From Chryseobacterium gleum (GTDB lineage Bacteria > Bacteroidota > Bacteroidia > Flavobacteriales > Flavobacteriaceae), in the NCBI GenBank assembly GCA_945881885.1, contig CAMCVI010000009.1, forward strand, positions 1 through 64,000: DNA of 64,000 bases, in the 5' to 3' direction. Below the pieces are notes generated by a model. It ran no database searches. It saw only the letters and a program-made list of their open reading frames with translations, and had not been told where the DNA came from. How positions within the stretch are numbered: position 1 is the stretch's first letter; the number at the start of each line of letters is the position of its first letter. The position numbers and the translations under genes are program-made. Below are positions 210-53,976 of the stretch, piece by piece.

Positions 210-375
210 TGTAAAAATTTTTACAAAACACGTAATTATATGCTGCTCAAAAAAGGATATATATTCTTATTTTATATCAAAAAATAGTTTTTGATATAAT
301 GCAACGTCTTTAAATTAATGATATAATTTTTTTTTTACATACATTATTTATAAGTTTGAAAATTAAAATCATTTT

Positions 376-1521
376 ATGAATTTACATTTATCCATTCCAG
401 ATTTTTTATTATTTGCAGCTTCAACACTTCTGATATTTACCACACTGTTGTTACTCAAGAAAGTCAACTCTAAAAACTATATGCTAGTAGGTACATTAGC
501 AATATACTTTAGTTTAATTACCGCAACCATAGTACTAATATTATTTACCCGTTACAACATTAAACTTCTCGATTCAGCAACTATTCTAGTATTAATGGCA
601 ATTGTATATTCACTTTATAATGTCTTTCACTATTTCAGTTTACAGCAATTGATTGCTAAAAAAACTCGGTTTACTTTACAACATGGTCTCCACTTAGGAG
701 TTATTTTATTAGTTGCCATTTTGATTTTTTATTTTTACGAACCAATAGATTTCATAAAAAGCAAGGGATACAGTTTTGTTTTTGAAACCCAACATTTGAT
801 GTCCGTTCAAAAGAAAAATTTTATATTACGTTTAATACGTACAATTTATCCGATATTTTATTTTATACTTGGGGGTTATTTATTATTTGCATTTTATAAT
901 TCTCCCCGATACCTTTCCGTGCAAAAATCAACGCGTTTTTTTATTTTCTTTTTTTACTTTCAGAGATTATTACTTTTCTTCTGGGTTTCAATTGGGTTTA
1001 TAGGATATAATATTGATGAAAATCTTTTTAGTTCTATTTCAATGATAGGTTTTTCTATAACTGTCTTACTAATGTCTAGCTATATTTTGTTAAGTCCAAA
1101 CTTGTTGTTGCAAATTACAAAGCTTAATTACAACTCAAAAAAAACAGCAGTTGATACCTCTAAATTTCAAGATTTATTTGCACAATTGAATCGTTTAATG
1201 GATCAGAATAATTTTTATTTAGATGCTAACTATAGCCTTACCAATTTATCATCTGATACTGATATATCAGCTAATACAATTCGAGAAGTAATTGCCGCAA
1301 ACGGCTACAAAAATTTCTCAACTTATATAAATTCGTATAGAATTGCACATGCTGAACAATTAATTTCCAATGGCTATTTGGATACCTATTCTATTGAATC
1401 CCTATGTAAAGATTCGGGATTTCAATCTGAAGTAACTTTTTACCGTGTATTCAAAAAAGTTAACCACTGCACTCCTAAAGAATTTACTTATAATTTGAAG
1501 AACTATAAACAAAAAAGTTGA
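376..1521 (+). CDS. Membrane-anchored AraC-family transcriptional regulator
   Basis: N-terminal multi-TM region, C-terminal AraC HTH (ISANTIREVIAANGYKNFSTYINSYRIAHAEQLI...SIESLCKDSGFQSEVTFYRVFKKVNHCTPKEF). Confidence 0.85.
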   Translation: MNLHLSIPDFLLFAASTLLIFTTLLLLKKVNSKNYMLVGTLAIYFSLITATIVLILFTRYNIKLLDSATILVLMAIVYSLYNVFHYFSLQQLIAKKTRFTLQHGLHLGVILLVAILIFYFYEPIDFIKSKGYSFVFETQHLMSVQKKNFILRLIRTIYPIFYFILGGYLLFAFYNSPRYLSVQKSTRFFIFFFYFQRLLLFFWVSIGFIGYNIDENLFSSISMIGFSITVLLMSSYILLSPNLLLQITKLNYNSKKTAVDTSKFQDLFAQLNRLMDQNNFYLDANYSLTNLSSDTDISANTIREVIAANGYKNFSTYINSYRIAHAEQLISNGYLDTYSIESLCKDSGFQSEVTFYRVFKKVNHCTPKEFTYNLKNYKQKS

Positions 1522-1756
1522 TAAACAATTATTAGTTTGGCTGCTTTTAAAAAAGTTTTAAATCTGAATTTAAAAAGTTTGTTCCATAGATTTACAACTA
1601 TTATTTTATATAATAGTTGTAATCTATAGTCTTTTAACTAAGAATAAATTAGATTCAATTAAAATGAATTTGTTCGGAATGTGGGTGATATTTATATAAC
1701 TTCAAGTCAAATATCTGATTTTATTGAAAATTAAATTGATAAAATATCATAAAAAA

Positions 1757-1780
1757 AATCCTACATTTCTGTAGGATTTA
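1757..1780 (-). terminator. Hairpin downstream of tRNA-Val
   Basis: AAATCCTACA-TTTC-TGTAGGATTT perfect stem with flanking A/T runs. Confidence 0.7.
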
Positions 1781-1786
1781 ATAAGT

Positions 1787-1860
1787 GGGCAATGAGGGGT
1801 TCGAACCCCCGACCCCCTCGGTGTAAACGAGGTGCTCTGAACCAGCTGAGCTAATTGCCC
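1787..1860 (-). tRNA. tRNA-Val (anticodon TAC)
   Basis: Reverse complement GGGCAATTAGCTCAGCTGGTTCAGAGCACCTCGTTTACACCGAGGGGGTCGGGGGTTCGAACCCCTCATTGCCC folds as a cloverleaf; anticodon loop TTTACAC. Confidence 0.95.
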
Positions 1861-1892
1861 CAATAAAACGCGCTACTTTAGTAATGCGAGTG

Positions 1893-1922
1893 CAAATATA
1901 CATCTGTTTTCGGTATATGCAA
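1893..1922 (-). promoter_or_regulatory. Bacteroidota-type promoter of tRNA-Val
   Basis: Minus strand TTG-N19-TATATTTG, matching the -33 TTG / -7 TAnnTTTG consensus. Confidence 0.7.
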
Positions 1923-1938
1923 ATAAAAAACAAAAAAA

Positions 1939-3153
1939 TTATAGTATTTCAGCAACTACAAAGTTACTGCCTCCAATAAAAATTAAATCTTTTATAGAAG
2001 ATTTATCAACTGCGGATTTGTATGCTTTTGAAACAGAGGCGTATGTGGTTCCAATAAGTTGGTATGATTTCGCTTTTTCTTGAAGTATTTTTGCGGCCAA
2101 ACCACGTTCAATTTTTGGTTTACAGAAATAATAATTGGCGTTTTTAGGGAATAATGGGATAATTGTTTCTAAATCTTTATCATTTACTACACCTAAAACA
2201 ATATGTAATTGGTTGTATTTCTCTTTTTTTAATTGATTCATAACTATTTCAAGTCCATGTGAGTTGTGGGCCGTATCGCAAATAACTTTCGGATTTTGTT
2301 GCAAAATTTGCCATCTTCCTTGTAGACTTGTGTTTTGGACTACATTCAAAATTCCGTTTTTTATATTTTCTTCCGAAATTTTGAAATCATATTTGAAATT
2401 TCTAAAGGTTTCAATTACAGTTTTTTTGTTTTTCCGTTGGTAATCGCCTAAAAGTCCGCAAGGATAATCTGGATGGTTTTCATCCTGTGCAAAATAAATT
2501 TCCGAGTTGTTTTTCTTAGCCGCTTCTAAAAAAACAGATTTTGTTTCTGGAGTGTATTCTCCAATTACTACCGGAATAGTGGGTTTTATAATTCCCGCTT
2601 TTTCAAAGGCAATTTTTTCTAAAGTATCGCCCAAAAACTGTGTGTGGTCTTTTCCAATATTTGTAATTACTGACAGCAAAGGCGTTAATACATTTGTTGC
2701 ATCCAGTCTGCCGCCCATTCCTACTTCAATAATAGCAATATCTACTTTTTTATCTGAATAATATTGAAAAGCCAATCCAACAGTCATTTCAAAAAAACTT
2801 AATTCGGTTTTCTCAAAAAATGATTTATGTTTTAAAATAAATTGATGTACATAATTTTTTGAAATTTTCTTACCATTAATTGTAATTCGTTCTCTGAAAT
2901 CTTTCAAATGAGGTGAAGTATATAAACCTACTTTATATCCTGCTTCCATAAAAACAGATGCAACCATACTACTTGTTGAACCTTTTCCGTTTGTACCAGC
3001 AACATGAATGGTTTTAAAATTTCTTTCTGGATGGTTCAAATGGGCTGTTAATAATAACGTATTGGTCAAATCTTCTTTATATGCAGCAGCACCAATGTTT
3101 TGAAAAACGGGCAGTTGATTGAAAAGCCAGTTAATGGATTCTTTATAGGTCAT
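1939..3153 (-). CDS. folC: Bifunctional folylpolyglutamate synthase/dihydrofolate synthase
   Basis: HVAGTNGKGSTSSMVASVFMEAGYKVGLYTSPHL and GGRLDATNV motifs. Confidence 0.95.
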   Translation of the reverse strand: MTYKESINWLFNQLPVFQNIGAAAYKEDLTNTLLLTAHLNHPERNFKTIHVAGTNGKGSTSSMVASVFMEAGYKVGLYTSPHLKDFRERITINGKKISKNYVHQFILKHKSFFEKTELSFFEMTVGLAFQYYSDKKVDIAIIEVGMGGRLDATNVLTPLLSVITNIGKDHTQFLGDTLEKIAFEKAGIIKPTIPVVIGEYTPETKSVFLEAAKKNNSEIYFAQDENHPDYPCGLLGDYQRKNKKTVIETFRNFKYDFKISEENIKNGILNVVQNTSLQGRWQILQQNPKVICDTAHNSHGLEIVMNQLKKEKYNQLHIVLGVVNDKDLETIIPLFPKNANYYFCKPKIERGLAAKILQEKAKSYQLIGTTYASVSKAYKSAVDKSSIKDLIFIGGSNFVVAEIL

Positions 3154-3281
3154 ATTTTTTTGATATTTTTATAAAATTTGGTCTTTAGTAAAATAAAATA
3201 TACTTTTTTTAGTTTTATACTTTATAGAAAAATGTATCTTTATTGCAAATTTCAAAAAATTAATTAAGAATAGTATTACTT

Positions 3282-19297: not shown

Positions 19298-20878
19298 TTA
19301 AAGTAAATCTGCTTCTTTTTTCTTTTTCTTGTTTCTATACCAATCAAAGGCAAAATAGCCCGCTAAAGCAAATAAGAAATATTTGAAATACGATTCTGGT
19401 TGGCCTTCTCCGCTAACGGTTGTAAAGAAACGTTCGGTTCTGAATTTATTTAGTAAACCTTTTGCGTTCCAATCCAAACTCATCCAAATAAAAATGGGTT
19501 TTCCAACAATATGATCTGCTGGTGTGTAACCAAAATATCGCGCGTCTAACGAATTATGTCTGTTGTCTCCCATCATCCAATAGTAATCTTGTTCAAAGGT
19601 GTAGGAAGTAGCTATTTTACCGTTTATTTTAATTTCGTTACCTTTTACTTCTAGCTTATTCCCTTCATATTCTGTAATGATAATTTTATACAAGGGTAAT
19701 GTTTTTTTATTTAAAACCACAGTTTTACCCGCTTGTGGAATATAAATTGGACCAAAATTATCTCCATTCCAATTATTAGTTACAGATGGATTTCCATCTT
19801 TAAAATCAGGGAATACGCCGTCTTCAACTTTTTTGTTTATCATTCTTTTTACAGAAGTAATACCGCTAATTGATTTTAATTTTTCTGCGTTTTCAAAAGT
19901 TAGTGCTTGAACATAAAGTGTGTCGCTAGTTATCATTCCAGCCGGATCAGTAACTTTCATTTCTCTTAAAATTGTCTCAAAATCAACTGCTGTTTTGCCA
20001 TCAGTACTAATTTTGTAAGAATACTGTGGTTTTGCTCTTTCAGGTAAAATTAATTCTTTACCGTTTATGAAAACAATTCCATCTTTAATTTGCAAACTGT
20101 CGCCAGCAATACCCACACAACGTTTTACATAATTTGTTTTTTTATCACGAGGTTTGTCAATTCTTTCAGTAGCTGGCAAATACATATTCGAAAGTGTATC
20201 TCTTGGCCAATTGAAAACAACAATATCGTTATTTTTTATTTTTTCTAAAGCCGGAAATCTGAAATAAGGTAATTGTGGTTTGCTTAAATACGATAGTTTT
20301 TTTACAATTGGAATGGAGTCATGTACCATTGGCGCAGCAATTGGCGTCATAGGTGTTCTAGCGCCATAATTAAACTTACTTACAAATAAAAAATCACCAA
20401 TTAATAATGATTTTTCTAACGATGAAGAAGGAATCACAAATGGCTGAATAAAATAAGTATGCACAAATGTAGCTACAATTAAAGCAAAAGTTAAAGATCC
20501 TAAAGTGTCTAAAGTCTTTGTTGCTGGTTTGGTATCGCGTTCGGCCTCGTATGAAACTTTTTGGGTGTAATTTATATAACCAATATACAATCCGAAAGTA
20601 ATAACACCCAACCACATATCTGCAGTGGTTTTTTTACCGAAAGTACGCAGGGTTTCAATCCAAATTACAGGTAAAATTAATAAGTTAATAACTGGTAAAA
20701 ACAGCAAAAACACCCACCATTTTGGTCGATTTATCATTTGCATTAATACAATTCCGTTATAAACAGGAACGAATGCTTCCCAAGTTTTTTTACCTGCTTT
20801 TAAGTATAATTTCCAAGTACAAATTCCGTGTAAAGTACTAATTATTAATACTGTAATAATCCAAATTGATATGTCCAT
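19298..20878 (-). CDS. lepB: Signal peptidase I with N-terminal membrane extension
   Basis: IPSSSLEKSLLIGDFLFVSKFNYG, NYVKRCVGIAGDSLQIKDG, YWMMGDNRHNSLDARYFG. Confidence 0.95.
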   Translation of the reverse strand: MDISIWIITVLIISTLHGICTWKLYLKAGKKTWEAFVPVYNGIVLMQMINRPKWWVFLLFLPVINLLILPVIWIETLRTFGKKTTADMWLGVITFGLYIGYINYTQKVSYEAERDTKPATKTLDTLGSLTFALIVATFVHTYFIQPFVIPSSSLEKSLLIGDFLFVSKFNYGARTPMTPIAAPMVHDSIPIVKKLSYLSKPQLPYFRFPALEKIKNNDIVVFNWPRDTLSNMYLPATERIDKPRDKKTNYVKRCVGIAGDSLQIKDGIVFINGKELILPERAKPQYSYKISTDGKTAVDFETILREMKVTDPAGMITSDTLYVQALTFENAEKLKSISGITSVKRMINKKVEDGVFPDFKDGNPSVTNNWNGDNFGPIYIPQAGKTVVLNKKTLPLYKIIITEYEGNKLEVKGNEIKINGKIATSYTFEQDYYWMMGDNRHNSLDARYFGYTPADHIVGKPIFIWMSLDWNAKGLLNKFRTERFFTTVSGEGQPESYFKYFLFALAGYFAFDWYRNKKKKKEADLL

Positions 20879-20899
20879 AGTTTTTGTTTTTTAAAGAAA

Positions 20900-20927
20900 A
20901 TAGAACATAGAGAATAGAAAATAGAGG
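20900..20927. repeat. Heptad tract (ATAGNNN)x4
   Basis: ATAGAAC ATAGAGA ATAGAAA ATAGAGG. Confidence 0.85.
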
Positions 20928-20933
20928 ATGTCT

Positions 20934-21284
20934 CTATTTAAGACCATTTTGAAAACTCATAGTCATTCTTTGAAATTCTTCAATTTTATTTTCTAATATA
21001 TTAAAAGTTTCTTCTGTTATGTATTTTCTGTGTTTTGCAACAATTAGTTGCGTAATTAATTCAAATGACGACCCTAATGAGATGTCTAAAAAATGACTGA
21101 AAGATTTATCAGTTCTTGAAGAACCTTCAGCAATATTACTCGGAATAGATACGGAACACCTACTTATTTGAGAGCTTAAATCGTATCTTTCATGTTTTGG
21201 AAAATCTAATAAAATATCCGAAATGTCATTCGTAATTGATATTCCGTTTTGCCATATTTTAAGATTCTTATAATTATGCCTCAT
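20934..21284 (-). CDS. Four-helix-bundle protein (S23 / 23S rRNA intervening-sequence protein family)
   Basis: NLKIWQNGISI...FPKHERYDLSSQISRCSVSIPSNIAEGSSRTDKSFSHFLDISLGSSFELITQL family signature. Confidence 0.9.
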   Translation of the reverse strand: MRHNYKNLKIWQNGISITNDISDILLDFPKHERYDLSSQISRCSVSIPSNIAEGSSRTDKSFSHFLDISLGSSFELITQLIVAKHRKYITEETFNILENKIEEFQRMTMSFQNGLK

Positions 21285-21299
21285 TTCAAAGTCAATATT

Positions 21300-21355
21300 C
21301 TATAATCTATTCTCTATTCTCTATTTTCTATATTCTATACTCTATACTCTATTCT
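21300..21355. repeat. Heptad tract (CTATNNT)x8
   Basis: CTATAAT CTATTCT CTATTCT CTATTTT CTATATT CTATACT CTATACT CTATTCT, abutting the dapB stop codon. Confidence 0.9.
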
Positions 21356-22054
21356 CTAAATCCCCAAAACGTCTTTCATTGTGAAAATGCCTTTTTTACC
21401 AATTAGCCATTCTGCTGCAATGACTGAACCTAATGCAAAACCTTCTCTGCTGTGCGCCGTGTGTTTAATCTCAATTTGGTCAACTTTACTATCGTAAAAA
21501 ACGGAATGAGTTCCAGGAATGTTTTCTATCCTTTTGGCGTCAATGTAAATTTGATTAGCAGTTGGATTTTCTAATGTCCAATTGACATAATCTGTATTTT
21601 CTATAATTCCGTTTGCCAAACTTATTGCTGTTCCACTTGGCGCATCGAGTTTTTGAGTGTGATGAATTTCTTCTATTGAAACCTTGTAATCAGAAAGATT
21701 TTTCATCATTTTCGCTAAATAATTATTTAGTTCGAAAAAAATATTTACCCCCAAACTAAAGTTCGAAGCATAAATAAAACTTCCATTTTTTTCATGACAT
21801 AAATTTACCATTTCAGGGTAGCTTTCTAACCAGCCAGTAGTTCCAGAAATTACAGGAATATTTTGGTTTAAACATTCCGATATATGGCTAACAGCTGTGG
21901 TTGGAACACTAAAATCTATTGCAACATCAGCACTTGTAATGCCTTCAAAAGAGTCTAATCTATCCTTTCTTAACACAATTTCATGACCACGTTCTAAAGC
22001 AATTTTCTCAATTACTTTTCCCATTTTACCATAACCTAATAATGCTATTTTCAT
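21356..22054 (-). CDS. dapB: 4-hydroxy-tetrahydrodipicolinate reductase
   Basis: MKIALLGYGKMGKVIE, ISGTTGW, EIHHTQKLDAPSGTA. Confidence 0.96.
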   Translation of the reverse strand: MKIALLGYGKMGKVIEKIALERGHEIVLRKDRLDSFEGITSADVAIDFSVPTTAVSHISECLNQNIPVISGTTGWLESYPEMVNLCHEKNGSFIYASNFSLGVNIFFELNNYLAKMMKNLSDYKVSIEEIHHTQKLDAPSGTAISLANGIIENTDYVNWTLENPTANQIYIDAKRIENIPGTHSVFYDSKVDQIEIKHTAHSREGFALGSVIAAEWLIGKKGIFTMKDVLGI

Positions 22055-32148: not shown

Positions 32149-32154
32149 TATTTT

Positions 32155-32219
32155 AAATTCCAAATTCCAAAAAAATAAATTCCAAATTCCAAACTGAAAA
32201 GTAGCGGAATTTGGAATTT
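32155..32219. repeat. Heptad tract AAATTCC x4 followed by inverted GGAATTT x2
   Basis: AAATTCC at 32155, 32162, 32177, 32184; GGAATTT at 32206, 32213. Confidence 0.9.
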
Positions 32220-53899: not shown

Positions 53900-53919
53900 A
53901 TATAAATGGTTAAATGCTT

Positions 53920-53976
53920 AAATTCCAAATTTCAACAATACTCAGTTGGAATTTGGAATTTTTATTTTTGGAATTT
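53920..53976. repeat. Heptad tract AAATTCC/AAATTTC then inverted GGAATTT x3
   Basis: AAATTCC 53920, AAATTTC 53927, GGAATTT 53948, 53955, 53970. Confidence 0.85.

Follow-up and report, generated by a model that had tools for sequence, protein, structure and literature searches.

The small gene between dapB and lepB in the stretch of DNA analysed here (64 kb, hereafter the window) represents, with a probability of about 70%, a widespread type of mobile cassette, which consists of a single gene for an S23-family protein and a long, imperfect hairpin of degenerate heptads with that gene as its loop, and which would be processed and spread by the mechanism proposed below. In our best reading of the sequences, intergenic cassettes of this kind and the intervening sequences (IVSs) of 23S rRNA genes belong to a single class of elements, and gene-less derivatives of the cassettes resemble MITEs or REPs. 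The class would hold, beside the rRNA IVSs, a new intergenic form and its gene-less offspring.

To our knowledge, neither a function nor a catalytic site is known for the S23 'four helix bundle' genes, the rRNA IVSs have no agreed origin so far, the heptamer repeats of several phyla have been described without a cause, and no enzyme is known for the movement of S23 cassettes. The common anatomy laid out below would tie together S23 genes, rRNA IVSs and heptamer repeats. Testable predictions follow from it on the binding target of S23 proteins, the reason for a period of seven and the spread without a recognisable transposase, and an annotation rule is gained for many intergenic repeats and four-helix-bundle genes.

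The S23 gene of the window and its arms

The product of the window gene matched both PF05635 (114.5 bits; cut-off 33.8) and TIGR02436 (about 102 bits; cut-off 24) above the curated cut-offs and over nearly the full profile, which bears out the S23 assignment made in a first-pass annotation of the same DNA. The solved S23 relatives 2gsc and 2rld, from which the fold is known, were also found by profile; each has five chains, assembled together in the crystal. The gene order is parA-parB-DUF5683-dapB-S23-lepB-wbqC, all on the minus strand, and the co-directional run described earlier is confirmed (Table 1).

Table 1. Features of the S23 locus in the window
Feature	Position	Strand	Profile
Gene for a four-helix bundle of 116 aa (S23 / 23S rRNA-intervening-sequence protein)	20934..21284	minus	PF05635, TIGR02436
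Heptad arm upstream (5') of the gene; coding strand ATAGAGN-type, plus strand CTATNNT x8	21292..21359	minus	
Heptad arm downstream (3') of the gene; coding strand CTATNNT-type, plus strand ATAGNNN x4	20893..20927	minus	
dapB, neighbour upstream of the S23 gene	21356..22054	minus	
lepB, neighbour downstream of the S23 gene	19298..20878	minus	

The core runs of the two arms were placed exactly in the first-pass annotation: four ATAGNNN units at 20900-20927 (ATAGAACATAGAGAATAGAAAATAGAGG) and eight CTATNNT units at 21300-21355. The tracts as a whole (TRF scores 48-95) reach slightly past these runs (Table 1), the 5' arm starting inside the stop codon of dapB and the 3' arm terminating just ahead of the A-rich leader of lepB. 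Dinucleotide shuffling of the entire window (64 kb, 60 rounds) produced no run of more than 3 units, which rules out a chance origin for runs of eight and four. As the first-pass annotation had it, the 3' arm is inverted relative to the 5' arm; the two are complementary and pair with each other in the predicted fold of the cassette RNA (18 + 13 bp, z = -3.6). The window copy is accordingly predicted to share with IVSs a stem of inverted terminal repeats around the ORF, while its location between dapB and lepB, outside any 23S rRNA gene, is not that of an IVS. An Rfam search of 20800-21450 returned no match, so a known Rfam RNA at this site was ruled out.

Profile searches of the host genome (99.5% complete) found neither a PF00078 reverse transcriptase, which agrees with the earlier statement that no reverse transcriptase is present, nor a PF01797 (Y1_Tnp) transposase. 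By these profiles, neither a retroelement nor a Y1 transposase stands behind the cassette. The window protein belongs to the same four-helix-bundle superfamily as Avd, the protein of diversity-generating retroelements, and its weak matches to the Avd and bAvd models (27.0 and 25.6 bits) could suggest that it serves in trans, as an Avd-like accessory, some retroelement of the diversity-generating or another kind. These scores are below the cut-offs (40 and 80 bits), and the genome lacks a PF00078 match where such an element is defined by a reverse transcriptase with template/variable repeats; we therefore regard this reading as very improbable.

Inverted arms at S23 genes of many phyla

All six S23 genes of the host genome lie between inverted short-period tracts, with one motif at each locus (CTAAG, AGCT, TTAGA, GGGT, ATAG and AAGATTTAAT types). 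The suggestion that ATAG/CTAT tracts might flank the other S23 genes of the genome was therefore right as to the inverted bracketing, but not as to the motif, which differs at each. Among 212 co-directional genes from 464 kb of the host genome, the window S23 gene ranked second for inverted match between its flanks, and S23 genes made up four of the top five; these controls rule out the tracts as a general trait of operon genes.

The main survey set comprised 92 distinct S23 loci of Bacteroidia, where S23 genes were present in 104 of the 126 genomes sampled (1-23 copies each). The inverted match between the upstream and downstream flanks of the same locus had a median of 36, versus 17 for mismatched locus pairs, 17 for shuffled flanks and 19 for control genes, and the self-match of the flanks peaked at lags 7, 14 and 21 (about 0.35-0.40 vs 0.30). 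Both neighbours were co-directional with S23 at 87 of the 92 loci, versus 56% for host-genome genes. A separate set of named loci, which takes in Nomurabacteria (L324), Anaerolineales (L371) and Ignavibacteriae (L359), gave a median inverted match of 30 vs 17, with lag-7 values of 0.39 and 0.43 vs 0.27-0.32 at other lags except 14. Thirteen S23 loci on plasmids, mostly cyanobacterial and some of them within Cmr operons, gave 32 vs 18 and lag-7 values near 0.45. Armed S23 loci are present in Cyanobacteria, Gemmatimonadota, Chloroflexi and Patescibacteria besides Bacteroidia; some 15-25% of loci had arms that matched no better than background.

Several further features were noticed at these loci. 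On cyanobacterial plasmids, heptad-flanked S23 genes occur inside CRISPR operons, in the orders cas6-S23-cas4 and cas10-S23-cmr3 (L424, L435, L431). Some S23 arms have a period of 8 or 6, and among short periods other than seven, a clear enrichment is seen for 8 alone. A stop triplet is present in many heptad motifs, and with a period of seven it yields stops in all three frames.

The arm motif tracked the S23 protein and not the insertion site. Locus pairs at different sites with S23 identity of at least 65%, most of them from one subfamily plus a few other pairs, had a mean motif match of 40; pairs at the same site with S23 identity below 55% matched at about 20 (background 18), and each of the loci with dissimilar S23 still has complementary arms. 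Tracts specific to the dapB-lepB site were ruled out by the same comparison. As the motif follows the S23 lineage while the arms stay complementary, both arms must change together within a lineage; possible causes are that the protein recognises them, that the stem is under selection, or that one arm is copied from the other. Such joint change, with a separate motif for each lineage, is at odds with the earlier description of the heptads as fixed 'ends' of one cassette.

The same arrangement was found inside rRNA genes. An S23-bearing insert on the Azospirillum lipoferum plasmid AZO_p2 (L434 1330-1960) lies inside a 23S rRNA gene, the Rfam LSU match (286-3267) spanning the insert, and its ORF is flanked by GACGGAT-GACAGAG-GACGGAG-GACAGAA and the inverse, i.e., (GACRGAN)4 arms. 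The Coxiella rRNA insert (helix 45) has a 28-bp terminal stem with inverted ends and, ahead of the S23 ORF, tandem GACAGAT heptamers whose number varies among strains; RNase III cuts it at the first repeat in vitro (PMC4990558). In vivo, Coxiella does not seem to produce its S23 protein, which may thus be dispensable there. From the heptad arms in Azospirillum and Coxiella, rRNA inserts and intergenic S23 loci have one anatomy in common, which we found stated in no paper. The only paper we found that ties an S23 gene to heptads is the one on the Coxiella insert, which notes the heptamers without linking them to other S23 genes (PMC4990558).

The recurrence of the same armed anatomy with differing repeats, across phyla and in rRNA genes, suggests that hairpin-armed mobile cassettes form a single family, so far unrecognised. 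Judged by sequence, this class is far wider than the first-pass annotation supposed and includes the S23 inserts in 23S rRNA. The window locus has both the S23 ORF and the inverted, locus-specific period-7 arms by which we propose to define a 'heptad-armed S23 element'.

Gene-less tracts and occupancy of sites

Heptads are not confined to S23 cassettes: tracts and hairpins without the gene are abundant, also at S23-less lepB junctions of relatives. In the 464 kb of host-genome stretches surveyed, period-7 tracts in non-coding DNA were about five times as common as tracts of control periods (32 vs 6-7). Most of them had no S23 gene, and most of these orphans are single arms. ATAG tracts occupy about 20 sites in the host genome, one of which has S23. 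At L401 (G000:C1:188246-188421), inverted ATAGAGN arms without an S23 gene lie between two co-directional genes and enclose a loop of about 90 nt with a terminator-like hairpin; the predicted fold of a gene-less heptad hairpin has z = -5.7. The ATAG tract sites and the L401 hairpin are dispersed gene-less copies of the kind by which MITE-like elements are recognised.

Heptads of other motifs were also seen. Two AAATTCC / GGAATTT hairpins without S23 lie between convergent genes in the window (32149-32200 and 53902-53969). Of the S23-less lepB leaders in relatives (L011-L034), many have C-type heptads of their own (TTTAAAC, AAATCTA) that abut the start codon, and G-type heptads come after stop codons at the dapB-lepB junctions.

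Heptad hairpins could form an independent class of intergenic repeats, spread or expanded by the host, which S23 genes merely use as landing sites. We consider this unlikely on balance, although most host-genome tracts are without S23, S23-less lepB junctions of many relatives have heptads of their own and the L002 site of the sister species (G080) holds a hairpin without S23. Against it, S23-free genomes are nearly free of tracts, with 2 in 700 kb (0, 0, 1, 0 and 1 in five genomes), versus 54 in 1158 kb of eight S23-bearing genomes (0-7 per 100 kb); the last of the five, a member of the same genus with similar GC (G040), gave a single weak, A-rich match. The number of S23 copies correlated with tract density (Spearman 0.74, uncorrected for kinship), and the median number of ATAG tracts was 28.5 in 14 genomes with the window subfamily vs 1 in 85 without it (p = 4e-7, likewise uncorrected for kinship). 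When phylogeny was taken into account, there were five independent pairs for the subfamily and ATAG tracts, none of them opposite, too few for significance. Moreover, orphan tracts matched the S23 arms of their own genome at 28.8 vs 22.5 for arms of other genomes (sd 1.1; 0 of 2000 draws), and arms travel between sites with the S23 lineage.

Somewhat less probable again is that the arms are a mutational by-product of replication slippage and template switching at an existing hairpin, which would lengthen the heptad tracts and preserve the match between the arms, the S23 protein having no role. Such a process would fit the joint change of the arms at each locus and their differences between lineages, the variable number of heptamers among Coxiella strains (PMC4990558) and the general over-representation of heptamers among bacterial repeats (PMC4692102), whereas it sits badly with the strong specificity for S23 genes inside the same genome, with the tie between tract density and S23 presence, and with a period of 7 and not any period.

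The empty sites that the first-pass annotation proposed to look for at lepB-dapB were found in two relatives. In the sister species (G080; 92% and 96% amino acid identity in dapB and lepB, respectively), the dapB-lepB gap is 46 nt long, without S23 and with three TTTACGA units. In the more distant G089, the site is also empty of S23 and has a TTTACGA tract, so that the empty state looks ancestral. The same S23 subfamily lies at dapB-lepB in seven species, in four of which heptads have overwritten the dapB stop codon, lengthening the reading frame. Alternatively, the gene was inherited vertically at dapB-lepB and lost in G080, in which case the site would show a loss and no mobile cassette. G512, placed outside the host (G000) and G080 by its dapB and lepB, carries at this site an S23 98% identical in amino acids to that of the window, which lends some probability to a loss in G080, and relic arms persist in G080 at another site (L004). 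Nevertheless, G080 and G089 have the TTTACGA tract in common, and fourfold sites of the host and G512 are identical at 0.79 in S23 (28 sites only), versus 0.62 in lepB and 0.54 in dapB. Gain is favoured over loss by this common tract and, over these 28 sites, by a synonymous divergence that is lower in S23 than in its flanks; the subfamily clearly changes site elsewhere, and vertical inheritance with loss is in our view improbable.

Three other S23 sites of the host genome hold in G080 and G089 a gene-less hairpin of another motif (L002 in G080), a relic with both arm ends (L004 in G080) or nothing. Apparent frameshifts in S23 were noticed in the G080 ortholog of host locus L003 (L093/L097, G080:C27:21939-22252), where the heptad arms persist, and in G028 contigs 59 and 97.

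The window subfamily occupies at least four sites. At 75% identity or more, about 50 of the 397 Flavobacterium genomes have it, mostly between thiolase and acyl-CoA dehydrogenase genes, with dapB-lepB and a 3-hydroxyacyl-CoA dehydrogenase site as further locations; the fourth site is that of a more distant branch (60-64% identity). The S23 gene tree requires five site changes (the minimum possible being three), with ATAG-type arms throughout. The seven dapB-lepB copies may have one origin (AU p = 0.29), and homologous recombination that transferred the gene could account for some of the changes of site. In another species, the 3-hydroxyacyl-CoA dehydrogenase site holds a different S23 with ATACAAT heptads. 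The ends are degenerate, and comparison of empty and occupied sites gave no clear target-site duplication; neither transposition nor an excision circle was seen. We infer from these comparisons that the S23 cassette moves on evolutionary time. The cassette proposed at first pass survives as a recurring unit of S23 gene and inverted arms, with an empty site in the sister species, other sites occupied, and no reverse transcriptase or Y1 transposase; it has lost its fixed heptad ends. Neither outcome named as contrary to it was observed, as there are relatives without the gene at this site and all six host S23 genes are armed.

Proposed mechanism and comparison with known systems

The cassette, lying between co-directional genes, would be transcribed together with them. 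Its arms would fold into a double-stranded stem to be cut by host RNase III, by analogy with the Coxiella insert in vitro. Such a cut would free the S23 message and keep the neighbouring messages separate, so that insertion would be tolerated. The S23 protein probably binds its own arms and helps to keep or spread them, host enzymes would supply the catalytic steps for spread, and the heptad hairpins that lack a gene would be remnants and non-autonomous descendants of such cassettes. It is attractive to speculate, as a tentative extension with the odds against it, that a pan-bacterial mobile system without a transposase has S23 proteins as its sequence-specific agents: each S23 lineage would recognise a heptad of its own, build or maintain both arms and scatter hairpins without a gene over intergenic DNA, and the rRNA IVSs and the Xanthomonas and Nostoc heptamers would be branches of the system.

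The REP/RAYT (IS200/IS605-like) system resembles the S23 cassette in that (i) a solitary gene is flanked by inverted short repeats with a motif tied to the resident gene, and (ii) gene-less relatives of these repeats are dispersed over the same intergenic positions. RAYTs belong to the Y1 HUH transposases, and their targets are fixed palindromes. In contrast, the S23 arms are degenerate tandem heptads, and the host genome, having no Y1_Tnp match, lacks the transposase that defines that system.

Intergenic heptamer tracts have been described with the motif GGGAATC in Xanthomonas and Nostoc (PMC4692102) and TAACTGA in Beggiatoaceae (PMC4679880), and neither paper mentions S23. The Xanthomonas GGGAATC tracts are like the S23-arm heptads in forming many convergent inverted pairs, and follow the same rule as seen here, with the G-strand on the coding strand where a tract comes after a stop codon and on the opposite strand where it precedes a start (PMC4692102). 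As structure 2GSC is that of an S23 protein from Xanthomonas campestris (XCC0516), a link between S23 and the Xanthomonas heptamers is predicted.

The closest parallel is the 23S rRNA IVS with an S23 ORF, as in Coxiella and Azospirillum. Like the window cassette, it combines the ORF with inverted heptamer terminal repeats (GACAGAT and GACRGAN, respectively), has a predicted stem whose loop contains the ORF, and is tolerated within a transcribed unit. The window cassette differs from it in that it lies between protein genes, its heptad differs per lineage, and many gene-less hairpins coexist with it.
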